Shown piece by piece: positions 19,271-30,837 of a stretch of 32,667 bases of DNA. The position numbers and the translations under genes were made by a program. The notes beneath the pieces are model-generated. The model was not told the DNA's origin and ran no database searches. It saw only the letters and a program-made list of their open reading frames with translations. This DNA is from Oscillospiraceae bacterium. GTDB lineage: Bacteria; Bacillota; Clostridia; Oscillospirales; Oscillospiraceae. Position 1 is the first letter of the stretch; the number at the start of each line of letters is the position of its first letter. The DNA lies in the NCBI GenBank assembly GCA_022799035.1, contig JAAWNQ010000025.1, positions 1 to 32,667 of the forward strand, given 5' to 3'.

Positions 19271-19390
19271 GATAAAAGATAACAGAGAAAAGAGAAAAGA
19301 TTTTGACCTGTGGCCGCCTCCGGCGGCATATTAGAAATGGTCCGGCTCCGCCGGACACCACATCTTTACTCTTTTATCTTTTCTCTTTTC
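19271..19390. repeat. Dispersed structured repeat, copy A (MITE/REP-like)
   Basis: A ~120-bp intergenic element between grpE and dnaK. It has a purine-rich left arm (19271-19300) and a pyrimidine-rich right arm (19361-19390) that are largely inverted copies. Between them lie the conserved block TTTGACCTGTGG, hairpin 1 (GCCGCC 19313-19318 / GGCGGC 19322-19327) and hairpin 2 (GTCCGGC 19340-19346 / GCCGGAC 19350-19356). A second copy lies at 29887-30003. Confidence 0.8.
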
Positions 19391-19425: not shown

Positions 19426-21279
19426 ATGTCTAAGATCATCGGTATCGACCTGGGCACCACCAATTCCTGCGTGGCTGTTATGGAGGGCGGCGAGGCCGCC
19501 GTTATTGCCAACGCCGAGGGCAACCGCACCACCCCCTCGGTGGTGGCCTTCGCCAAGGACGGGGAGCGGATGGTGGGCCAGGTGGCCAAGCGCCAGGCCG
19601 TCACCAACCCCGACCGCACCGTGGCTTCCATCAAACGGGAGATGGGCTCCGACTACAAGGTCACGGTGGACGGCAAGAACTACACCCCTCAGGAGATCTC
19701 CGCCATGATCCTCCAGAAGCTGAAGGCGGACGCCGAGGCCTACCTGGGCGAGACGGTCACCGAGGCGGTGATCACCGTCCCCGCCTACTTCACCGATTCC
19801 CAGCGCCAGGCCACCAAGGATGCCGGGCGCATCGCCGGCCTGGACGTCAAGCGGATCATCAACGAGCCCACCGCCGCGGCCCTGGCCTACGGCGTGGATA
19901 AGGAGACCGCCCAGAAGGTCATGGTCTACGACCTGGGCGGCGGCACCTTCGACGTATCCATTCTGGATATTGACGACGGAGTCATCGAGGTCCTGGCCAC
20001 CGCCGGCAACAACCGCCTGGGCGGCGACGACTTCGATAAGTGCGTCATGGACTGGATGGTAGCCGAATTCAAGAAGGACACGGGCATCGACCTCTCCTCT
20101 GACAAGGTGGCCATGCAGCGTCTCAAGGAGGCCGCCGAGAAGGCCAAGATCGAGCTTTCCGGCGTGACCTCCTCCGCCATCAACCTTCCTTATATCACCG
20201 CCGACGCCACCGGCCCCAAGCACCTGGACCTGACCCTCACCCGGGCCAAGTTTGACCAGCTCACCGCCCACCTGGTGGATGCCACCTCGGGGCCCGTGAA
20301 GCAGGCTATGTCCGACGCCGGCCTCACCGGCAATGACATCTCCAAGGTCCTGATGGTGGGCGGCTCCAGCCGTATCCCCGCCGTCCAGAACATGGTGAAG
20401 AAGCTCACCGGGAAAGAGGGCTTCAAGGGCATCAACCCCGACGAGTGCGTGGCCATCGGCGCAGCCTTGCAGGGCGGCGTCTTCACCGGCGACACCAAGG
20501 GCCTGCTGCTGCTGGACGTGACCCCCCTCTCCCTGGGCATCGAGACCATGGGCGGGGTGATGACCAAGCTCATCGAGCGCAACACCACCATCCCCGCCAA
20601 AAAGTCCCAGATCTTCACCACTGCCGCCGACAACCAGACCAGCGTGGAAGTCCACGTCCTCCAGGGCGAGCGTGAGATGGCCCAGTATAACAAGACCCTG
20701 GGCAAGTTCAGCCTGGACGGCATCGCCCCGGCGAGAAGGGGCGTGCCCCAGATCGAGGTCACCTTCAACATCGACGCCAACGGCATCGTGGAGGTCTCCG
20801 CCAAGGATATGGGTACCGGCAAGGAGCAGCACATCACCATCACCTCCTCCACCAACATGTCCAAGGAGGACATCGACAAGGCCGTAAAGGAGGCCCAGCA
20901 GTTCGCCGCCGAGGACGCCAAGAAGAAGGAGGAAGTGGAGGTCCGCAACCAGGGCGAGCAGATGGTTTACCAGACCGAAAAGACCATGGAGGACCTGAAG
21001 GATAAGCTGGAGCCGGGCGACAAGTCCACCCTGGACGCCGCCCTCACCAAGCTGAAGGACGCCCTGAAGGGCACCGACACCGCCGCCATCAAGGCCGCCA
21101 GCGAGGAACTGAGCAAGGCCTTCTACCCCATCACCGAAAAGCTCTACCAGCAGGCCAACCCCCAGGCCGGTCAGCCCGGCCCCGACATGGGCGGCGCCGG
21201 CTTCGGCGGCCCCACCGGGGCCCCGGACGACGGCGTGGTGGATGCCGACTACACCGTGGTGGACGACGATCCCCAGTAA
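19426..21279 (+). CDS. dnaK: Molecular chaperone DnaK (Hsp70)
   Basis: An ATP-driven cytoplasmic chaperone of 617 residues. The ATPase domain starts [20 protein letters not shown]. Phosphate and connect motifs [18 protein letters not shown] and [14 protein letters not shown] are intact, and [16 protein letters not shown] is present. The substrate domain has [20 protein letters not shown]. The helical lid ends with a Gly-rich tail and [15 protein letters not shown]. It is shorter than E. coli DnaK, as in Gram-positive relatives that lack a segment in the ATPase domain. The ATG at 19426 has TTGGAGG nine bases upstream; sequence further upstream belongs to the repeat element. It lies in the HrcA-controlled operon, separated from grpE by the repeat. 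Confidence 0.98.
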
Positions 21280-21289
21280 CACAAGTAAA

Positions 21290-21340
21290 ATGGCGCGCCG
21301 GGGCCCCACAACGCTGGGGCACAGCGATCCGGCGCGCCAT
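21290..21340. repeat. Nested palindrome between dnaK and dnaJ
   Basis: A 12-bp perfect outer stem (ATGGCGCGCCGG 21290-21301 with 21329-21340) encloses an inner stem (GCCCC 21303-21307 with GGGGC 21316-21320). No U-tract follows, so it is not a standard terminator. It may stabilise or cleave the mRNA and set the dnaK:dnaJ ratio. Confidence 0.6.
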
Positions 21341-21378
21341 CCCCTGTTTCCCATTCCCCTCAAAAGAGGTGAGCACAT

Positions 21379-22524
21379 ATGCCCGACCAAAAACGAGATT
21401 ACTACGAGGTCCTGGGTGTCTCCAAGGGTGCCAGCGAGGATGAGCTGAAAAAGGCCTACCGGAAAAAGGCCAAGGCCTACCACCCCGACCTGAACCCCGG
21501 CGACAAGACCGCCGAGACCAAATTCAAGGAGGTCAACGAGGCCTATGAGATCCTCTCCGACCCCCAGAAGCGCTCCCGCTACGACCAGTTTGGCCACGCG
21601 GGGGTGGACCCCTCCTACGGCGGCGGAGCCGGCGGCTTCACCGGAGGCTTCGATATGGGGGACCTGGACCTGGGCGACCTCTTCGGCTCCTTCTTTGGCG
21701 GGGGCTTCGGCGGCGGCCAGAGGGCCAATCCCAACGCCCCGCGGAAGGGGGACACCCTCCGGGCCGCGGTGACCATCTCCTTTGAGGAGGCCGCCTTCGG
21801 CTGTGAGAAGGAGATCACCCTCACCCGCTCGGAGACCTGCGGGGAGTGCCACGGCTCGGGCTGCGCCCCCGGCACCTCCGCCGACGCCTGTCCCGACTGC
21901 CGGGGCACGGGCCAGATCCGCATCCAGCGGGGGGGCGGGGCCTTTACCTTCTCCACCTCCGCCCCCTGCACCCGCTGCCGGGGTACAGGCAAGATCATCC
22001 ACCAGCCCTGCAAGGACTGCAGCGGCACCGGCCAGGTAAAGAGACAGCGCAAGCTCACCGTGAATATCCCCGCCGGCATCGACAACGGCCAGGCCGTCTC
22101 CCTCCGGGGTCAGGGCGGAGCTGGGGTCAACGGCGGCCCCGCCGGGGACCTGCTGATCTCGGTCACCGTCCGCCCCAGCAGCAAGTTCCAGCGGGACGGC
22201 ACCGCGGTCTACTACGAGCACGCCGTCACCTTTGCCCAAGCCGCCCTGGGCGACAAGCTGGTGATCCCCACCATTGACGGCAATGTGGAGTACGACCTGC
22301 CCCGCGGCACCCAGCCGGGGACGGTGTTCCGCCTCCGGGGCAAGGGCATTCCCTCAGTAAACGGCCGGGGCCGGGGCGACCAGTTCGTCACCGTCAAGGT
22401 CGCCGTCCCCACCTCCCTGAACAGCCAGCAGGAGGAAGCCCTCCGGGCCTTCTCGGCGGCCATGGGAGAAAATGCCCCTGAAGAGGCCAAAGGTTTTTTT
22501 GACAAACGCAGGAAAAAGAAATAA
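21379..22524 (+). CDS. dnaJ: Co-chaperone DnaJ (Hsp40, type I)
   Basis: This 381-residue protein stimulates the DnaK ATPase and delivers substrates. The J domain has HPD at residues 35-37 ([12 protein letters not shown]). A Gly/Phe-rich linker covers about 75-115. The zinc region has four CxxCxGxG repeats: [24 protein letters not shown] and CKDCSGTG. The C-terminal peptide-binding domain ends in [20 protein letters not shown] lies seven bases before the ATG at 21379. The last ten codons and stop form one copy of a 34-bp direct repeat whose other copy lies at 27530-27563. The gene itself remains intact. Confidence 0.97.
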
Positions 22525-22526
22525 AA
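22493..22526 (+). repeat. 34-bp direct repeat, left copy (dnaJ 3' end; putative attL)
   Basis: The sequence from the G at 22493 to the A at 22526 is identical to 27530-27563. It covers the last ten codons, the stop codon and two following bases of dnaJ. The identity ends abruptly on both sides. Confidence 0.9.
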
Positions 22527-22589
22527 AGAGGCGGCTCTCAGCCGGGTGTTCATAAGGACTCACGGTAAACGGGCAAAATTTTAAAGAGC

Positions 22590-22622
22590 AGAGCGGCGAT
22601 CATTTGACCGCCGCTCTCTTTT
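22590..22622 (+). terminator. Intrinsic terminator downstream of dnaJ
   Basis: AGAGCGGCG (22590-22598) pairs with CGCCGCTCT (22609-22617), followed by T-rich sequence. It lies within the putative island, so it may serve dnaJ after insertion. Confidence 0.75.
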
Positions 22623-22702
22623 CGCCCCCGTATCTACGCCGGGTATGTTCCACGCCGGGGACACTTCTCTTTGTAATTCATAATCTACAAACCACCCGCC
22701 GC

Positions 22703-22727
22703 TCCGTCAGGGGACGACGGATTTTTT
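22703..22727 (+). terminator. Second, weaker terminator on the + strand
   Basis: A 6-bp stem (22703-22708 with 22716-22721), followed by six T (22722-22727). It lies between dnaJ and the convergent regulator gene. Nothing else is recognisable in 22623-22777. Confidence 0.5.
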
Positions 22728-22777
22728 AGTGTTGTCCACCCTTAGAGGAGGAATCCCCGCACCGCCTGACGGAACTC

Positions 22778-24649
22778 CTAATCATCCGCCATTCCCAACT
22801 CTCGCATCTTTCTCCAGAGAGTTGTTCGGCTGATTCCCAAGATATCAGCTGCTTGGGCACGACTGCCAAAAGCCAGACGAAGGGCATCCTTGATCTCTTG
22901 CCGCTCCACATCTTCGTTGGATGGTGTTTTCTCCTCGGATGGGTTTCTACAGACAAGCACATCCTCTATGGCGCTGTCAATATCCGTGCCTGGAGTAAAG
23001 TTTACGCAGAAGCGCTCAATAACATTGCGAAGTTGCCGGATGTTGCCAGGCCAGTCATAGTCCAGAAAACGAGAGGCCTGACTGATGGCTTCCATCTCGC
23101 TATGGGTCAGGTCATTTCGATTTTCATAGAGAAATTCTTTAATGAGCAATGGGATATCACATTTTCGCTGACTTAGATTGGGTAACTGCAGCTCCAAAAC
23201 ATGGATTCGATAGTAGAGGTCCTCTCGGAAAAGCCCCTCTTGCACCAGTTGGTAAAGGTCTTTACGGGATGAGGCAATAAGGCGCACATCCACAGGCACT
23301 ACCTTGTTGCTGCCCATGCGGAAGAACTGCTTTTCCTCAATCGCGCTGAGCAACCGTGCTTGCAGCTTAAGGGGGAGTTCTCCGATCTCATCAAAAAAGC
23401 AAGTCCCCTGATAGGCCATTTCCAGCAGGCCCATCCTTCCTACGCGCCGTCCGTTGGAGATGTCATCACAGCCAAACAATTCGCCCTCCAGCTTGGAACT
23501 GGGGATTGCCCCGCAGTTTATATGAACAAAGTGTTCGTTTTTCCGCAGGCTGGCATTGTGTAAGGCCTGGGCAAAGACCTCCTTCCCTGTGCCGGTCTCA
23601 CCTTGGATAAAAACAGAAACATCGCTGCGAGCATACCGTTCCGCCTTCTCTTTTATGGCGGCAAACTCCGGACTCACTGTACGGATACCAGCGAAGGTCC
23701 CTTTCGCCAGAAAACCGTTGAAACTTTGGCTGCGGCGGACGTTTTCTCCGGCCTGATTGATAGTACTGCCACTGAAAAACGTGGCTAGTGCACCGATGAC
23801 TTCCTTATCGCTGATAATGGGACTACGGTTGGTGACGATCTTCACATTCCCCAGATCCTGCACCTTATTGAACTGGGCACGCTTCTCCCGTATAACGGTA
23901 TGGAGTTGGGTATTGGGCAGCACCTCTTCACACGGACGGCCCACAATACTTTTCCGGCTGCGGCCTATAATCCGCTCGGCACTGTTATTAAAATGAGTAA
24001 TGATACCATTGCGATCCGTCACAATGATCCCCTCTGCGGAGTAGTCCATCAGGTAATCCAGTAAGCGGGCTTTCTCTGCCAAGGCTTTTCGGTTGCGTAC
24101 CAGATTGATGGCCGTCTCCATAGCCCTGCGCACTCCGTCCAGTGACCAGATGTAATGCCCACGCATACCGTATATTTTGGCCTGATCAATAACAAGCGAT
24201 GTGCCGATCACATCACGGATACCCTCGGCATAAAGCGTCTGGAGGAGCAGTTGCAGTTCATCCAGGGTCTTATACACATAGGGTCTCACCTCTGCGCGGA
24301 AAACCTCTCTCAGCTCCTCCAACTGGGGAAGCGCATTGGAGGTGATCAACGCAATACTGTCGCTGAACGCCATGGATTCCTTCACGGCGTTCATGATATC
24401 ATAGCCGGTAAATTCGACCCGGACCAGCGGGATGTTCCGCAGGTATTTTTCCGCATATTCCGCATTTCTGCCTGACGCAATGAATACGTCGATATCCCCG
24501 GAGACCTCCATACGCTGTATGACATCCTTGCTTTCAGAAAAAATGTCGTTGATGATGACCGTTTCCACATCCGCAGGGAGCTCAGGCCGGAGTTTCTCTA
24601 TGAATTGAGAAAATCCCCCATAGTTATTCACAGCGATTTTTATACTCAT
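22778..24649 (-). CDS. PrpR-type sigma-54-like activator lacking the GAFTGA motif
   Basis: The regulator has 623 residues. Residues 1-190 are a PrpR N-terminal sensor domain (start MSIKIAVNNYGGFSQFIEKL; GTSLVIDQAKIYGMRGHY). A PAS domain follows at about 200-310 (LMDYSAEGIIVTDRNGIITH). The AAA+ domain at about 322-555 has Walker A GETGTGKE (350-357) and Walker B GTCFFDEIGELP (about 415-426). The C-terminal Fis-type helix-turn-helix has RAQAADILGISRTTLWRKMR. Where active sigma-54 activators carry ELFG-x-x-x-GAFTGA, this protein reads ELFGCDDISNGRRVGRMG. The sigma-54 contact loop is lost and about two residues are missing, so activation of sigma-54 is unlikely. The start at 24649 has AGGAG upstream. 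It is probably the regulator of the adjacent carrier-lyase operon. Confidence 0.9.
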   Translation of the reverse strand: MSIKIAVNNYGGFSQFIEKLRPELPADVETVIINDIFSESKDVIQRMEVSGDIDVFIASGRNAEYAEKYLRNIPLVRVEFTGYDIMNAVKESMAFSDSIALITSNALPQLEELREVFRAEVRPYVYKTLDELQLLLQTLYAEGIRDVIGTSLVIDQAKIYGMRGHYIWSLDGVRRAMETAINLVRNRKALAEKARLLDYLMDYSAEGIIVTDRNGIITHFNNSAERIIGRSRKSIVGRPCEEVLPNTQLHTVIREKRAQFNKVQDLGNVKIVTNRSPIISDKEVIGALATFFSGSTINQAGENVRRSQSFNGFLAKGTFAGIRTVSPEFAAIKEKAERYARSDVSVFIQGETGTGKEVFAQALHNASLRKNEHFVHINCGAIPSSKLEGELFGCDDISNGRRVGRMGLLEMAYQGTCFFDEIGELPLKLQARLLSAIEEKQFFRMGSNKVVPVDVRLIASSRKDLYQLVQEGLFREDLYYRIHVLELQLPNLSQRKCDIPLLIKEFLYENRNDLTHSEMEAISQASRFLDYDWPGNIRQLRNVIERFCVNFTPGTDIDSAIEDVLVCRNPSEEKTPSNEDVERQEIKDALRLAFGSRAQAADILGISRTTLWRKMRELGMADD

Positions 24650-24725
24650 GAGGTCTCCTCACTTTCCAGGCAGTATTATTTTATATTTTACCAGCTTTTT
24701 CTCTATCTGTCTATGGCTTACACAG

Positions 24726-24756
24726 AAGGAGCTGTCCCATAGAGAGACAGCTCCTT
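24726..24756. terminator. Hairpin between the carrier and regulator genes
   Basis: An 11-bp perfect stem (AAGGAGCTGTC 24726-24736 with 24746-24756). On the minus strand it follows the carrier stop by about 30 nt, but the U-tract is poor. It could be a weak terminator or stabiliser of the operon transcript. The rest of 24650-24784 is AT-rich and probably holds the regulator promoter, which I cannot place exactly. Confidence 0.45.
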
Positions 24757-24784
24757 GCATGTATATGGGGAATATAATACCCGC

Positions 24785-26074
24785 TTAAGAGATTACACCC
24801 AAGACAGTAAGAAAAGAGGCAAAGAGAATAGATCCCACAGACAGGGCCATCAGGGACACAAACAGCTTGTTTTTCTTGACCTCGTCAGTCTCGCCGGCCA
24901 TTGTCATACCGCCGCCGGTAGAGAAGGGAGACACGCCGGCAAAGTGACCACCCACCATGATGGAGGAAATGAGTGCCGTGGCAGAGACACCCGTGGCTGC
25001 AGAAATACCAGAAACGAACGGGATCAGAGTGGGGCCCACAACGCCCAGAGTGCTGGAGAAGAAGCTCATGAAGCCACCAACCATAGCCAGAACGATTTTT
25101 GCCATCACAGGGCTCAGTCCATCGCTGACCCAAGTGGACAGAACCTCGATGGCTCCGGCTTTGTTGGCCACAGCCACCAGCATGGCTGCACCGCAGACCA
25201 GTATGATCGTACTCCAGGGGACGAAAGCCAGGGCCTTCTTCTCATCTCCCAAGTGCATCAGCAGGGAGATTACCAACAGTACGCAGAACAGCAGGCTAGG
25301 CTCGATAGCACTGGAGAGAGTGCTGATAATCGCCACTGTGGGGAACAGGGTCTTGAGCAGGGGGAACAGAACGGCTATCACCAGACCGATGGCAATGATA
25401 ACGGCGGTCTGTACCTGTTTCTTGCTTAAGGCATCGGGCTTGGTCTCATAGACGGGGCTCTCCACCTTCCAAGAGCGGCAGATAATATAGATCACAACGA
25501 AGATAATGACCTGAGCCAGGATGTTGTTGAAGGAAATGCGGGGAAGCATGGCCAATGCCTCGGCCTCCTCATAGCCGGCATTGAGCAGACAGGTCTTAAC
25601 GGTAGCATAGCAGAGGCTGATAGGAGTATACCCACCGGCCACACCGCCGCCCACAATGCAGACTGCCGCCACCAATTTGTTAAGCTTGATACGGTCACAC
25701 ATACCCAGGATAATGGCAGGCATAAAGGCAAAGATCGTGGTGGGTCCGGCGCCAAGACCGGAAAGGGCAAAACAGACGACCCACATCATGATGGGAATCA
25801 AATAGGGATGGTTGCGGAAAGCATAGATAAAGTGCTCACTGATCAGGCCCAGTGTTCCATTGGTAACGGCAATCCCATAGAAGAAGGAAGCCATCATGAT
25901 GAAGAAGAACAGGCTGGTGGGCCACAGGGCAATGATGGCGCTAGTCTTCATGTGAAGCACAAAGGCGCCAAAGATGTAAGAGAAGGCAATGGCAATCAGG
26001 CCCACATTGACTTTTGTTTTATAGCCAACTACCACTGCCACAACAATAGACAGGACAATCAGAAAGCTTATCAC
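24785..26074 (-). CDS. MatC-like dicarboxylate carrier (SLC13-type permease)
   Basis: An inner-membrane transporter of 429 residues with eleven to twelve hydrophobic segments. The N-terminus (start MISFLIVLSIVVAVVVGYKT, then KVNVGLIAIAFSYIFGAFVL) matches the MatC N-terminal family, described for the rhizobial malonate carrier. The second half has repeated small-residue motifs such as FFSSTLGVVGPTLIPF and GVSPFSTGGGMTMAG, as in ion-transporter/DASS-like permeases. The start is GTG at 26074, with GGGGGAA upstream, 22 bases after the lyase stop. It is therefore the second gene of a lyase-carrier operon. The substrate is probably a dicarboxylate or branched C5-C6 acid fed to the lyase; this is inference. 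Confidence 0.82.
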   Translation of the reverse strand: MISFLIVLSIVVAVVVGYKTKVNVGLIAIAFSYIFGAFVLHMKTSAIIALWPTSLFFFIMMASFFYGIAVTNGTLGLISEHFIYAFRNHPYLIPIMMWVVCFALSGLGAGPTTIFAFMPAIILGMCDRIKLNKLVAAVCIVGGGVAGGYTPISLCYATVKTCLLNAGYEEAEALAMLPRISFNNILAQVIIFVVIYIICRSWKVESPVYETKPDALSKKQVQTAVIIAIGLVIAVLFPLLKTLFPTVAIISTLSSAIEPSLLFCVLLVISLLMHLGDEKKALAFVPWSTIILVCGAAMLVAVANKAGAIEVLSTWVSDGLSPVMAKIVLAMVGGFMSFFSSTLGVVGPTLIPFVSGISAATGVSATALISSIMVGGHFAGVSPFSTGGGMTMAGETDEVKKNKLFVSLMALSVGSILFASFLTVLGVIS

Positions 26075-26096
26075 AGAAGATTCCCCCTATCTCAGA

Positions 26097-26972
26097 TTAT
26101 TCCGTGTAGGGATCAACGAAGGTCTTTTCCAGATCCCGCCACTGCTGTACACCAATCATTTTGTTGAAAGTGGGGAAGTCCACCTCATACTCCATGCAGG
26201 GCCGTAGATCCTCATTCTCCTTCAAAATCTGCAGAACCTCAGCCATAGCCTTTGTAGCGGGATAAAGGGTAACAACGGGATAGATGGCAATGCGGAAGCC
26301 CATCTTATAGAGATTCTCGGCAGTGTCCAGCGGAGTCTTACCGTTCTCTACCATGTTAGCCATCAGCGGCGCACCAACCAGCTTCGCGGTGCTTTCCACC
26401 TGTTCGCGGTTCTGGAGGGCCTCCACAAAAATTACGTCTGCGCCGGCCTCTTTGTAGGCGACAGCACGGTCGATGGCATCCTCAAAACCGTTGACCGCAA
26501 TGGCGTCGGTGCGGGCAATGATCACAGTGTCCGGGTTCTTCCGGGCATAGACGGCAGCGCGGATCTTGGCCACCATCTCCTCCTTGGGAACCAGTTGCTT
26601 GCCTTCCATGTGGCCACAGCGCTTGGGCATGACCTGATCCTCCAGCTGAATACCGCATACGCCCGCATCCTCATATCCAGAAACGGTACGGACAACATTC
26701 AGGGCACTCCCATAGCCGTTATCGGCATCGGCAATCACGGGAATAGAGGTAGCATTACAGATGTTGCGTGCAGCGGTCACGATCTCATTATAGGAAATCA
26801 ACCCAATGTCAGGCATTCCGAGAGTGCTTGCAGAAACGCCATAACCGGTCATGTAAACAGCCGAGAAGCCGGCGGCCTCCACCATTCTCGCCGACCAGGC
26901 GTCGTAGGCGCCCGGCGCCATAACGATCTTGTCCCCAGCCAACAGTTCCCTCAGTTTCTTTGCTTTACTCAT
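26097..26972 (-). CDS. Isocitrate lyase/PEP mutase superfamily lyase (methylisocitrate or dimethylmalate lyase-like)
   Basis: The enzyme has 291 residues and a TIM-barrel fold that cleaves C-C bonds of 2-hydroxy di- or tricarboxylates, giving pyruvate or a related oxoacid. Family landmarks are MAPGAYDAWSARMVEAAGF, metal-binding Asp82/Asp84 in IADADNGYGSA, Glu111 in IQLEDQV, the catalytic loop KRCGH at 117-121 (MPKRCGHMEGK) and IIARTDAIAV. KRCGH with its cysteine indicates a lyase rather than a PEP mutase. The -HMEGK continuation is reminiscent of 2,3-dimethylmalate lyase-type members more than of PrpB; this sub-assignment is tentative. No citrate-synthase-like prpC or prpD is present, which argues against the methylcitrate cycle. 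The start at 26972 has GAGGAGG upstream. It is the first gene of the operon with the carrier. Confidence 0.85.
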   Translation of the reverse strand: MSKAKKLRELLAGDKIVMAPGAYDAWSARMVEAAGFSAVYMTGYGVSASTLGMPDIGLISYNEIVTAARNICNATSIPVIADADNGYGSALNVVRTVSGYEDAGVCGIQLEDQVMPKRCGHMEGKQLVPKEEMVAKIRAAVYARKNPDTVIIARTDAIAVNGFEDAIDRAVAYKEAGADVIFVEALQNREQVESTAKLVGAPLMANMVENGKTPLDTAENLYKMGFRIAIYPVVTLYPATKAMAEVLQILKENEDLRPCMEYEVDFPTFNKMIGVQQWRDLEKTFVDPYTE

Positions 26973-27009
26973 GATGTGAATTTCCTCCTCATTTTGTTAT
27001 TTGTTTTTT

Positions 27010-27026
27010 GTGCGGATTTGCCGCAC
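27010..27026. promoter_or_regulatory. Inverted repeat in the lyase leader (possible regulator site)
   Basis: GTGCGGATTTGCCGCAC is a perfect 6-bp inverted repeat with a 5-bp centre, about 30-45 bases downstream of the predicted promoter -10 box. It could be the site of the PrpR-like regulator or an RNA hairpin. Confidence 0.45.
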
Positions 27027-27056
27027 CAGGTTGATTTCAGTTTATCAGTCACCCCA

Positions 27057-27084
27057 TTTATAAAAAAGTCTATCCCTTTATCAA
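27057..27084 (-). promoter_or_regulatory. Sigma-A-type promoter of the lyase-carrier operon
   Basis: TTGATA (27084-27079), a 16-bp spacer and TATAAA (27062-27057), followed by an ~85-nt leader. I see no -24/-12 (GG-N10-GC) sigma-54 element upstream of the lyase, consistent with the regulator's loss of GAFTGA. Confidence 0.6.
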
Positions 27085-27529
27085 GACTGAAATTTCTATT
27101 TTTTTACCCACTTTTTGCCCCGGTATTTGTTCAATCAGACGGAAAGCGTTTCAAAAAAAGTATTTGGCTGTTGCAAGCCTTTGCAACAGCCAAGTTTGAT
27201 CTATCTTAACAGCGTCTTTTTGTTGAAACATTGCGAAACATTTTGTTCCGCAATAGTAAGCGCCATTTGGATTTTTACGTCATCGAAAATACTTACTCAA
27301 CAAAGAAAAGGGGCGGGTAGCCCTTCCTTTTTCTGCCAAGGGGAATGGCGTATCTTCCCTGATTCCCCCCGGCAATTATTGATCGTGGGCAGTTTGGCCG
27401 GGTGCAGGAGTTGCGTCGGCACCGCCGCCGTTCCACCAGGCAGGGGCTTTTCTCCAGGGTAGCCTACTGTGCCGACTGTAGCTTAAAGCTGTGCTTTGCC
27501 GCTTGTAAGTCTTTCACAAGTAGGGATAA
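27085..27529. other. Non-coding right end of the putative island
   Basis: About 445 bases without a convincing gene on either strand. It holds a minus-oriented terminator (27153-27193) and AT-rich DNA to ~27310, then a GC-richer stretch. Just before the right direct repeat is a small inverted repeat (CTTGT 27503-27507 / ACAAG 27516-27520) that could be a recombinase site. Confidence 0.5.
27153..27193 (-). terminator. Intrinsic terminator, minus orientation
   Basis: A 13-bp perfect stem (27164-27176 with 27181-27193, loop GCCT), followed on the minus strand by ATAC and seven T. It would stop leftward transcription entering the lyase promoter region. Confidence 0.75.
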
Positions 27530-27563
27530 GTTTTTTTGACAAACGCAGGAAAAAGAAATAAAA
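27530..27563 (+). repeat. 34-bp direct repeat, right copy (duplicate dnaJ 3' end; putative attR)
   Basis: Identical to 22493-22526. It carries the last codons and stop of dnaJ but no coding frame leads into it. The next base starts a terminator hairpin. Confidence 0.9.
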
Positions 27564-27564
27564 T

Positions 27565-27601
27565 GGTGGGCAGAGCATTCCATGCTCTGCCCATCTTTTT
27601 T
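27565..27601 (+). terminator. Intrinsic terminator, probably the original dnaJ terminator
   Basis: A 14-bp stem with one G-T pair (27565-27578 with 27582-27595, loop TCC), followed by six T. It directly follows the duplicated dnaJ 3' end, with no gene upstream to terminate here now. Confidence 0.88.
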
Positions 27602-27621
27602 GAAAACAGGAGATTTTGGTA

Positions 27622-29886
27622 ATGTCCCAGTATATCAAACCACCCATTCTCTTTGCCCTTCTGACCCTGGCCGCCATCCTCCTCTTCCTGGTCCGGTACG
27701 CCCTGGCCCGGGGGGAGGGCTCTCCCCTGCCTCCGGAGCCGGAAAAGAAGCCCCTCTCCTTCGCCGGGAAGCGCCACCCCATGGAGCGGAAGGACCGCCT
27801 GCCCATTCTGGCCATCACCCTGGTCTACGCCCTTACCGCCTTCTTCCAGCTGGGGGACCACGACGCCCCCCAGCTGGTCTGCGAGTTTGCCCCCAGCGTC
27901 TCCTACACCATCCGTATCAGCGGCTCTCCGGTCAACACCACGGGCTTCCGTTATTTCTCCGGCCTGGGCACAGGCAGCTACAACATTGAAGTCTCCCCCG
28001 ACGGCAAGACCTGGTCCACCCTCTGGCAGCGGAAGGAGGATCCCAATGATAAAAACAAGGTGACGGGCTACTACTTCGCCAAGGCGGAGGACTTCCCCCC
28101 CAACTACGCCCTGACCCAGAAATACAACCAGCTTTATAAGTGGATCGATGTGACGGTGGAGAACCCCCTGAACGTCCAGTACCTCCGCATCACCGGGAAG
28201 GCGGACAAAAAAAATCTCCAGCTCGCCCGCTTGTGCCTTCTGGACCAGGACGGCCAGCCCGTCTCCTTCTCCTACGGTTCCGTCTGGGACGACGGCACCG
28301 TTGTGGAGCCCCCCAAGGAGCTGGAGTCCCTTTTCTCCACCCAAAACGTCCCTGAAAAATCCACCTGGCACAACTCCACCTACTTTGACGAGATCTACCA
28401 CGCCCGCACCGCCAAGGAGCACATCGACAACGTCTACCCCTACGAGGTCACCCACCCTCCCCTGGGCAAGCTGATCCTGGGCCTGGGGATCCGCCTGTTC
28501 GGCATGGACCCCTTCGGTTGGCGGTTCATGGGGACCCTTTTCGGGGTCCTCATGCTCCCCCTGCTCTATGTCTTCCTGAAAAACCTCTTCGGCAAGACGG
28601 CGGTAGCCGCCTGCGGTACCATCCTCTTTGCCACCGACTTCATGCACCTGACCCAGACCCGTATCGCCACCATCGACACCTACGCCGTGTTCTTCATCCT
28701 GGGCATGTACTTCTTCATGTACCGCTATCTCACCCTCCCGGCGGGGACCCCACTCCGCAAAAGCGCCCTCCCTCTCCTCCTCTCCGGCCTCATGTGGGGT
28801 CTGGGGGCGGCGGGGAAATGGACCGTCTTTTACGCGGGGATCGGTCTGGCAGTGGTCTACTTTATGGGTCTTTACCAAAAGCTCCGGGACTGGCCCCAGG
28901 ATGATACCGCCCAGACCCGGCGGATCCCCTGGCTCATTCAGACCCTCCTCCTTTCCGTCCTCTGCTTCATCCTCCTCCCCTTCGCCATCTACTGCGCCGC
29001 CTATATCCCCTATGCCCAGGCCCTGGAGATAGACCTGTTCGCCCCCAGCGAGACAAACGGCCTTGCCCTCCTCTTCCAGAACGTCTGGGGCAAGCTCACC
29101 TTCGCCGGGGAGGGGGAGTTCCAGGCCGCCTATATCCCCCAGGACAACCTGCTCAACATCATGGCGGGGAACCAGTGGTACATGTTCAACTACCACAACG
29201 GGGTCACCCAGTCCCACCCCTACTCCTCCTGGTGGTTCCAGTGGATCGTCAACGCCCGGCCCATCCTCTACTACATGGACAACGACGTGGCGGGCTATAC
29301 CACCCGCTTCGCCGCCTTCGCCAACCCGGTCCTGTGCTGGGCCGGTCTCCCGGCCATCCTTCTCTGCGCCGCCCACTCCTTCCGCAGGCTGTGGGCCAAG
29401 GCCGCCTTCCTGGTCGGCCTCGGGCTCTTCTCCGCCGCCGCTGCCCTGAAGATCCAGCAGACCCCCAACGGGGTCTTTGACCCCTCTCTCCCCCCCGAGA
29501 CCATCACCCGCAACGGTCTCATCCTGTTGGCCTGCCTGCTCCTCTATCTGGCGGTCTGTGTCCTGCTCCTCCGCTTCGCCCCCGGGCGCTCAGGCAAGGC
29601 CCCCTTCCTCCTGGTAGGCTTTCTGGCCCAGCTCGTCCCCTGGATGTTCGTGGGCCGCACCACCTTCGAGTATCACTACTTCCCCTCCCTTCTGTTTCTG
29701 GTCCTGGCCGTGAGCTACCTCTTTGACGGCCTTCTGACCCATGACCGGGACTGGCGTACCCCGGTCTACAGCCTCACCGGCCTCAGCGCTGGCCTCTACG
29801 TCCTGTTCTACCCCGTCCTCATCGGCCTCGCCATCCCCACTTGGTATCAACCCCTGGTCAGGTGGCTGGAAAGCTGGCCCTTCTAA
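27622..29886 (+). CDS. PMT-family (GT39-like) membrane glycosyltransferase with discoidin-like insert
   Basis: The protein has 754 residues and uses a lipid-linked sugar at the outer membrane face. Membrane segments lie at about 9-27 and 60-77. Residues ~80-215 are a soluble, beta-rich region (FAPSVSYTIRISGSPVNTTG; SYNIEVSPDGKTWSTLW; VQYLRITGKAD) resembling an F5/8-type (discoidin) sugar-binding fold. The PMT core follows with the catalytic pair Asp256-Glu257 in STYFDEIYHARTA, then VTHPPLGKLILGLGIRLFG, IDTYAVFFIL and many hydrophobic segments. A PMT 4TM C-terminal part has HPYSSWWFQW. The ATG at 27622 is chosen because AGGAG lies nine bases upstream; the in-frame TTG at 27616 is too near it. 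The donor is probably a polyprenyl-phosphate sugar; the acceptor is unknown. Confidence 0.9.
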   Translation: MSQYIKPPILFALLTLAAILLFLVRYALARGEGSPLPPEPEKKPLSFAGKRHPMERKDRLPILAITLVYALTAFFQLGDHDAPQLVCEFAPSVSYTIRISGSPVNTTGFRYFSGLGTGSYNIEVSPDGKTWSTLWQRKEDPNDKNKVTGYYFAKAEDFPPNYALTQKYNQLYKWIDVTVENPLNVQYLRITGKADKKNLQLARLCLLDQDGQPVSFSYGSVWDDGTVVEPPKELESLFSTQNVPEKSTWHNSTYFDEIYHARTAKEHIDNVYPYEVTHPPLGKLILGLGIRLFGMDPFGWRFMGTLFGVLMLPLLYVFLKNLFGKTAVAACGTILFATDFMHLTQTRIATIDTYAVFFILGMYFFMYRYLTLPAGTPLRKSALPLLLSGLMWGLGAAGKWTVFYAGIGLAVVYFMGLYQKLRDWPQDDTAQTRRIPWLIQTLLLSVLCFILLPFAIYCAAYIPYAQALEIDLFAPSETNGLALLFQNVWGKLTFAGEGEFQAAYIPQDNLLNIMAGNQWYMFNYHNGVTQSHPYSSWWFQWIVNARPILYYMDNDVAGYTTRFAAFANPVLCWAGLPAILLCAAHSFRRLWAKAAFLVGLGLFSAAAALKIQQTPNGVFDPSLPPETITRNGLILLACLLLYLAVCVLLLRFAPGRSGKAPFLLVGFLAQLVPWMFVGRTTFEYHYFPSLLFLVLAVSYLFDGLLTHDRDWRTPVYSLTGLSAGLYVLFYPVLIGLAIPTWYQPLVRWLESWPF

Positions 29887-30003
29887 GAGAAAAGATAAAA
29901 GAGTAAAGAGAAAATAGTTTGACCTGTGGCGGCTATAAGCCGCAAGCATTAAAATAGTCCGGCTCCGCCGGACACCATATCTTTTATCTTTTATCTTTTA
30001 TCT
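29887..30003. repeat. Dispersed structured repeat, copy B (MITE/REP-like)
   Basis: A ~117-bp element starting at the base after the PMT stop codon. Its left arm shares 23 identical bases with the inverted right arm of copy A. It keeps TTTGACCTGTGG and hairpin 2 (GTCCGGC 29957-29963 / GCCGGAC 29967-29973), but hairpin 1 has a different, still fully paired stem (GCGGC 29929-29933 / GCCGC 29939-29943). The right arm is a TATCTTT-like tandem (29978-30003). Confidence 0.8.
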
Positions 30004-30033
30004 CCCACCTTTTCCCCTTCAGGAGGAAATGCG

Positions 30034-30837
30034 ATGTTCCTACCCGACTACCACACCCACTCCCTCTGCTCCCCCGACGGCTCCGCCCCCTTGACGGAGC
30101 TCTGTCAGGCCGCCGTAGACGCCGGCCTCTCCGAGCTGTGCCTCACCGACCACTGTGACCTGGTGAACCCTCAAAGCCGGCCCGACCTCTCCTTCCGTTG
30201 GGAGCCCGTGGAGGAGCAGTTCGCCCTGGCCCGCCCCCTTTTCCGGGACAGGCTGGCCCTCCGTATGGGCCTGGAGCTTGGCTCCGCCTGGGAGTTCCCC
30301 GACTTCGCCCAGGCCGTCACCTCCCACCCGGACCTGGACCTCGTTCTGGGCTCGGTCCATAACCTCCGCCTCTCCCAGGGAGGGATCGACTTTTATTATG
30401 TAAACTACCACTCCCCCCAGGACTGCTACGCCGTCCTGGACCCCTACTTCGACTGTATGGAGGAGCTGTCCCACATGGACTGCTGGGACGTGCTCTCCCA
30501 CATCATCTACCCCCTGCGGTACATGAACCGCCGGGACGGCCAAAACGCCTCCCTGGACCGCTACGAGCCTCACCTCCGCCGCATTTTCAAAGCCGTGACG
30601 GACACCGGCCGTGGCATTGAGTGCAACACCTGCCGGGGCCAGACCATAGAGGATTGGCGCTGGGTCCTGACCCTCTACAAAGACTGCGGCGGGACCATCG
30701 TCACCCTGGGCAGCGACGCCCACCGTCCCCAGGACGTGGGCAAGGGCGTCCCCCAGGCCGCCGCCCTGCTGAAGGAGTTAGGCTTCACCCACACCGCCCG
30801 GTATGTCCGCCGCACCCCCCAACTGCTCCCCCTCTGA
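30034..30837 (+). CDS. PHP-domain histidinol-phosphatase-like protein
   Basis: A metal-dependent phosphoesterase of 267 residues. It is similar to HisK-type histidinol-phosphatases, which remove phosphate from L-histidinol phosphate. PHP motifs are visible: DYHTHSLCSPDG near the N-terminus, LCLTDHCDL, LGLELGSAWE, LGSVHNLR, DVLSHIIYPLRYM, IECNTCRG and GSDAHRPQDVGKG at the C-terminus; these His/Asp/Glu residues bind the metal cluster. Length matches the HisK family (~260-280). The start at 30034 has AGGAGG seven bases upstream. There is no histidine gene next to it, so a role on another phosphate ester is possible. It follows the PMT gene by 147 bp, filled by the repeat element. Confidence 0.85.
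   Translation: MFLPDYHTHSLCSPDGSAPLTELCQAAVDAGLSELCLTDHCDLVNPQSRPDLSFRWEPVEEQFALARPLFRDRLALRMGLELGSAWEFPDFAQAVTSHPDLDLVLGSVHNLRLSQGGIDFYYVNYHSPQDCYAVLDPYFDCMEELSHMDCWDVLSHIIYPLRYMNRRDGQNASLDRYEPHLRRIFKAVTDTGRGIECNTCRGQTIEDWRWVLTLYKDCGGTIVTLGSDAHRPQDVGKGVPQAAALLKELGFTHTARYVRRTPQLLPL

Follow-up and report, generated by a model that had tools for sequence, protein, structure and literature searches.

In a stretch of 32,667 nt from an Oscillospiraceae bacterium (GCA_022799035.1, contig JAAWNQ010000025.1, positions 1-32,667 of the forward strand; hereafter the window), we analyzed a block of inserted DNA that separates dnaJ from a gene encoding a PMT-family membrane glycosyltransferase. The block is bounded by two identical 34-bp sequences, the first of which is the 3' end of dnaJ. 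It is probably a mobile element or island that integrated site-specifically into the dnaJ 3' end and has since lost its mobilising functions. The features of the junction are as follows.

21379..22524, plus strand: dnaJ (Pfam DnaJ, DnaJ_C and DnaJ_CXXCXGXG; NCBIfam DnaJ_bact above its cut-off)
22493..22526, plus strand: left 34-bp copy, attL-like (attachment-site-like); the last ten dnaJ codons, the stop codon and two bases
22527..27529, no strand: inserted DNA, GC content 0.511, no counterpart at 12 of 13 congeneric junctions, no terminal inverted repeats
27267..27518, plus strand: fragment of a broken large serine recombinase gene, interrupted by two in-frame stops; its end lies 11 bp to the left of the right copy
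27530..27563, plus strand: right 34-bp copy, attR-like; displaced dnaJ 3' end holding the PMT promoter-like site
27536..27564, plus strand: promoter-like site TTGACA-17-TAAAAT, 11 of 12 matches
27565..27595, plus strand: hairpin with a T tail, either the ancestral dnaJ terminator or a PMT leader hairpin
27616..29886, plus strand: PMT-family gene (Pfam PMT, PMT_4TMC and PMT_2), the downstream neighbour

The two copies agree at 34 of 34 positions, both on the plus strand, and lie 5,037 bp apart. A pattern search with the 34-mer at up to three mismatches returned these two sites in the window, compared with a mean of 0 in 100 shuffles, confirming the exact repeat claimed in the original prediction; the identity of the left copy as the true dnaJ end was likewise borne out by the Pfam and NCBIfam assignments. 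The rest of the genome (65 contigs, 2,270,656 bases, 94.95% complete) contained no third copy in a BLAST search with a 261-base query that took in the left one, and a 30-base pattern at up to three mismatches recovered the two known copies only. A weak third BLAST match corresponds to dnaJ codons beyond the 34-mer. The prediction had named a common dispersed repeat as an outcome that would speak against it; with just two copies found, the 34-mer is not one in this genome.

Comparison with congeneric genomes revealed the unoccupied site. Among 16 genomes including the present one (only 6 of which reach at least 90% completeness with at most 5% contamination), dnaJ was detected at E<=1e-80 in 14, and the remaining 13 junctions were retrieved. 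In 12 of these 13, PMT begins approximately 50-130 bp after dnaJ, with one 34-mer-like dnaJ end and the hairpin between them; at L030 and L032 the single 34-mer is present without a mismatch. A counterpart of the hairpin can be seen by eye after the dnaJ end in congeners. Because 12 of the 13 congeners have the empty site, the ancestral order dnaJ-hairpin-PMT is settled, in agreement with the predicted order, and the cluster is not a constant feature of the genus. Together with an exact repeat that is not dispersed, these empty sites support the proposal that the dnaJ 3' end is the insertion site.

The insert is compositionally foreign. Its GC is lower than that of the left (0.622) and right (0.625) flanks, and the lowest value among 354 5-kb segments outside the island is 0.599. 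GC at third codon positions (GC3) ranges from 0.58 to 0.66 across the cluster's genes and from 0.87 to 0.92 across seven flanking ones, so that the lower GC first noted by eye holds for both measures. The three genes form the minus-strand set of regulator, carrier and lyase that had been predicted, as Pfam and NCBIfam scans confirmed.

22590..22617, plus strand: inverted repeat, candidate replacement dnaJ terminator; 13-nt arms, 92% complementary, not on the terminator list
22778..24649, minus strand: PrpR-like sigma-54-dependent activator (Pfam PrpR_N, PAS, AAA+ and HTH_8)
24785..26074, minus strand: MatC/CitMHS-type dicarboxylate carrier (Pfam MatC_N and CitMHS)
26097..26972, minus strand: PrpB-like lyase of the phosphoenolpyruvate (PEP) mutase/isocitrate lyase superfamily (Pfam and NCBIfam scans)

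The regulator scores 375.6 bits against an NCBIfam PrpR equivalog cut-off of 499.2, and the lyase 314.4 bits against a PrpB equivalog cut-off of 354.4. Since neither reaches its cut-off, the substrates of both are left open. The carrier matched no NCBIfam family, and the nearest solved chains to the lyase are the petal death protein, 2,3-dimethylmalate lyase and methylisocitrate lyases. The cluster's likely role is to take up and cleave, under regulation, an acid resembling a dicarboxylate or methylisocitrate. A perfect 13-bp stem, TTGGCTGTTGCAA/TTGCAACAGCCAA, lies upstream of the lyase operon at 27164-27193.

The cargo is also patchily distributed, which with its composition upholds the prediction that the cluster is foreign. 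The lyase was found at E<=1e-60 in 1 of the 16 congeneric genomes, its own, and the carrier at E<=1e-90 in 2 of 400 family genomes. In a wider collection of genome contigs the carrier occurs at 2 loci, one of them on the same contig as G253. All three genes recur at locus L124 with their order unchanged (62, 79 and 78% identity), next to uronate genes that include UxaC and altronate dehydratase, and L123 has the carrier and lyase only; no recognised tyrosine integrase is near either. DNA similarity to L124 spans approximately 23526-27006, and therefore the ends of the island are not common to both. Outside its own genome, the left end of the island gave only short weak matches (E 0.003-0.006) in 160 family genomes, while the right end has a 33-bp match to G040 (L130).

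The 34-mer holds more than the dnaJ end. The site TTGACA-17-TAAAAT, which lies inside the right copy and extends one base past it, is the best promoter match of 22400-27700, an interval with 7 such matches against 4.7 expected. The left copy has the -10-like hexamer TAAAAA, a weaker match that was not listed as a promoter. To view the site across the family, 114 dnaJ ends were surveyed, comprising the window, the 13 congeners, 40 family regions picked by a 34-mer-like pattern (and so biased towards the 34-mer) and 60 picked by DnaJ protein match. Several of these regions are short contig ends; at L149 the script picked an end other than a DnaJ tail, and the source genome of L154 has two dnaJ genes, one probably a contamination. 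At dnaJ-PMT junctions the site was present with a spacing of 17 in 50 of 55 at up to one mismatch and in 54 of 55 at up to two, 29 of the 55 having been fetched by the biased pattern. The subset fetched by DnaJ protein, irrespective of the 34-mer, gave 21 of 25 and 24 of 25, respectively, with L142 lacking the site. Mononucleotide shuffles rarely reached the observed promoter score, the exceptions being L035 (16 of 200), L198 (7) and L142 (192).

In L147, L152, L153, L155 and G019 the promoter is detached from dnaJ, reads TACAAT and has ceased to encode the dnaJ tail; therefore, coding does not explain its conservation. A bidirectional terminator could, through its A tract, account in part for TAAAAT beside the hairpin; the G019 hairpin appears weakened by eye, with the promoter kept. 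The right copy is probably a kept PMT promoter and not a dead scar, and as a conserved PMT promoter it would have a functional reason to persist. The hairpin with its T tail, for which no Rfam match was found at E<=0.1 in 21000-28500, and PMT follow the right copy as predicted; the prediction did not recognise that the copy is itself promoter-like and that a recombinase relic adjoins it.

The junction has been opened elsewhere in the family. The thirteenth congener, G204 (L035), has approximately 1.75 kb between dnaJ and PMT; its dnaJ tail is spelled differently and is followed directly by a hairpin of its own, and the distal side carries TTTACA-17-TAAAAT ahead of the genus-typical hairpin. 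This insert had no match among phages. Genus g74 includes genomes with the overlapped arrangement (G218, G074 and G150) and others in which the promoter is separated from dnaJ by approximately 80 bp to 3 kb (G329, G360, G385 and G261). A second copy of the dnaJ tail (25/37) occurs in G019, 105 bp start to start, and in G318 the genome's own tail is duplicated (33/37), 247 bp start to start, ahead of a PHP gene. To score displaced tails, the 17-bp spacer of each promoter was compared with 42 overlapped dnaJ tails and 20,000 shuffles. No shuffle reached the score of the right spacer in the window, 1 reached that of G019 and 68 that of L162.

Some of these intervals have contents of their own. 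The G318 insert (L182:314-530) shares short stretches of 25-62 bp (79-96%) with intergenic DNA of L157, L170 and L103 and looks as if built of dispersed repeat pieces. In G360 (L152:457-3450) and G385 (L153:400-2643), the interval between dnaJ and the promoter holds a gene whose product is large and looks secreted (997 and 747 aa, respectively); the g74 relatives with short intervals lack this gene.

The proposed course of events begins with a mobile element or island that would have entered the dnaJ 3' end by site-specific recombination, at a core of 34 bp comprising both the last dnaJ codons and the PMT promoter. Integration would have left the sigma-54 regulator, the dicarboxylate carrier and the PrpB-like lyase between two copies of the core, with the left copy completing dnaJ and the right copy keeping PMT supplied with its promoter, together with the old hairpin. 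In this way the 34-mer would both end dnaJ and switch on PMT, and both neighbours could still work. Mobilising functions would have been lost later, and a serine recombinase fragment would have remained.

The repeat, the empty sites, the foreign composition, the conserved promoter and the relic are observed; that the duplication was the work of a site-specific recombinase is our inference, as is the kind of enzyme. Within the relic at 27267-27518, the DNA of 27365-27492 is similar to genes for large serine recombinases in G347 (71% over 123 bp, E 2e-9 per genome) and G377, and protein similarity along the fragment is 45% over 88 columns, corresponding to residues 267-349 of a 553-residue homologue; around EWRIFPDS another frame continues better by eye. 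It matched two phage records, which carry no annotation, and five plasmid records, each of the five annotated as recombinase family or DUF4368. No Pfam family was found at E<=1, and the case for the relic rests on pairwise similarity for this reason. The earlier statement that no integrase is visible is thus correct for intact genes and incomplete for this relic. The matched portion is the recombinase and zinc-ribbon region of the large DUF4368 serine recombinases, which we take to be TnpX/TndX-like; unlike those intact enzymes, only approximately 84 broken codons remain here, and their action at the dnaJ end is only conjectural.

Recombinase genes were found at a distance from surveyed dnaJ ends. 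Matches 3-19 kb downstream of dnaJ in L090, L112, L117 and L141 were judged off-site. In G118 (L090:16459-19301) two large serine recombinase genes are adjacent, approximately 16-19 kb downstream of dnaJ, and G248 (L141) has a serine recombinase-like gene approximately 6.7 kb after dnaJ, with no PMT there. Nine tyrosine-type matches, 8 of them above the cut-off, and 4 serine-type ones occur in the genome carrying the island, none on the island contig.

Several results weigh against site-specific integration at the dnaJ end. No intact integrase was found within the island, nor at the site in any of the surveyed dnaJ 3' ends, separated junctions included. None of the 13 recombinase loci in the island's own genome has a core-like neighbour with more than 21/34 matches. 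Three attP-like patterns had 0 matches in viral contigs, and a fourth had 4, all of them poly-A chance matches that we rejected; the island ends matched nothing among phages and plasmids. The L124 and L123 loci have no dnaJ-end copy nearby. A chance match in L118, 8 kb away, equals the second copy of G019 at 25/37, and for this reason the G019 case rests on its position and spacer score. Spacer scores at other separated junctions were reached by many of the 20,000 shuffles: 475 in L147, 619 in L152, 835 in L035, 972 in L155, 1,377 in L153, 1,418 in L154 and 2,176 in L143. A displaced dnaJ end is thus strongly supported in the window and G019, supported in G318 by the direct duplication, and weakly supported in the remaining separated junctions. 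Other DNA between two copies of the dnaJ end, which the prediction suggested looking for, is seen in the short insert between the dnaJ tails of G318.

The main rival holds that the island entered by homologous, illegitimate or microhomology-mediated recombination and that the repeats mimic att sites, having been selected for an intact dnaJ end and a PMT promoter. The repeat does span the functional overlap almost exactly, from the T run of the -35 hexamer to the stop codon, and the distal copy in G204, the g74 genomes and L143 keeps the promoter hexamers while the remainder has drifted; the lack of an integrase also agrees with this account. Selection alone, however, makes no duplication. Moreover, the 17-bp spacer, whose sequence a promoter does not have to preserve, is identical in both copies of the window, and the duplicated end of G318 precedes a gene without a PMT-type promoter, where selection would have no obvious reason to act. 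We regard a selection-only origin of the repeats as unlikely. About equally doubtful is that the enzyme of the relic once served the island as its integrase, in a manner comparable to that of SCC-type elements, which enter the 3' end of rlmH by means of large serine recombinases. The fragment, oriented towards the right copy, ends 11 bp from it, and all five of its plasmid homologues carry the recombinase family or DUF4368 annotation. Yet it lacks both protein ends and may be left over from a different element, a shared core of 34 bp is longer than usual for serine integrases, and the intact homologues in G347 and G377 have no demonstrated dnaJ location. On precedent, a tyrosine integrase, now missing, is favoured, with the relic keeping a serine enzyme open.

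Misassembly, in which two sequences were joined at a shared 34-mer, is very improbable: misjoins are typical at short identical repeats, but two of them would require a donor whose island was already flanked by 34-mers, in effect a genuine occupied site, and separated junctions recur in other genomes. The chance that the repeats are an unusually long target-site duplication of a transposon is practically negligible. Direct repeats do flank the insert; its termini, however, are not inverted repeats (5/20 bases identical), an absence on which this candidate was rejected, no transposase occurs among the open reading frames of at least 120 aa, and the target recurs at the gene end in other genomes.

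Site-specific integration at a dnaJ-type gene has a precedent in Bifidobacterium, where seven prophages with tyrosine integrases occupy the 3' end of dnaJ2; their 35-bp cores start at the FF codons, and 5-7 mismatches are tolerated in most, according to the available excerpts of that report (PMC6109161). In both systems a dnaJ gene is targeted at its 3' end, stop codon included, and is rebuilt on integration, and the core lengths, 34 bp here and 35 bp there, are similar. The prophages are approximately 39-43 kb in these excerpts, in contrast to 5 kb here without phage genes or an intact integrase, and dnaJ2 is an actinobacterial paralogue, unlike the present dnaJ. The published core lacks TTGACA, whereas the core here holds a promoter-like site, and the excerpts make no mention of an overlap with a downstream promoter; they do state that coding regions are the more common targets of serine integrases (PMC6109161). 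A literature search turned up no account of integration at dnaJ 3' ends in Clostridia. The bifidobacterial core had no match in the phage collection. On viral contig L140, a dnaJ2-type core lies 45 bp after the end of an integrase-like gene; the host of L140 was inferred from this core, and the phage relatives of the gene are annotated integrases among the matches listed (15 of 572 records).

Outside the island, a putative PHP-domain gene, named by reading of the sequence, lies at 30034-30837. Two intergenic copies of a GATAAAAGA-type repeat, at 19271-19387 and 29887-30012 of the window, are 10.6 kb apart and have the GTCCGGCTCCGCCGGAC hairpin in common (repeat families D6 and D8; inverted pair I7).

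An element that enters a gene at its 3' end can make good the end that is lost, which is why such ends are common integration sites. The present island resembles integrase-less islands and cis-mobilisable remnants at such ends in its direct repeats, restored gene end, empty sites and foreign cargo, and an island at a gene 3' end is itself of a known kind. It differs from them in that the core also appears to carry the promoter of the next gene, leaving the displaced copy functional. What is new is this double use of the core and the repeated opening of the junction in the family. A promoter in the displaced copy would explain why the right copy is intact, and integration at a busy junction would be harmless on both sides. 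As a caution, direct repeats at an overlap of gene and promoter can persist by selection and resemble att sites. The finding makes dnaJ 3' ends outside Bifidobacterium added places to look for islands. More tentatively, and with less confidence than in the integration itself, the dnaJ-PMT junction of the family may be a recurrent integration hot spot in which the 34-mer serves as the end of an essential-type gene, promoter and recombination core, one copy after integration acting as gene end alone and the other as promoter alone, each free to diverge. If so, successive integrations would swap the C-terminal tail of DnaJ and separate a gene pair that once overlapped.

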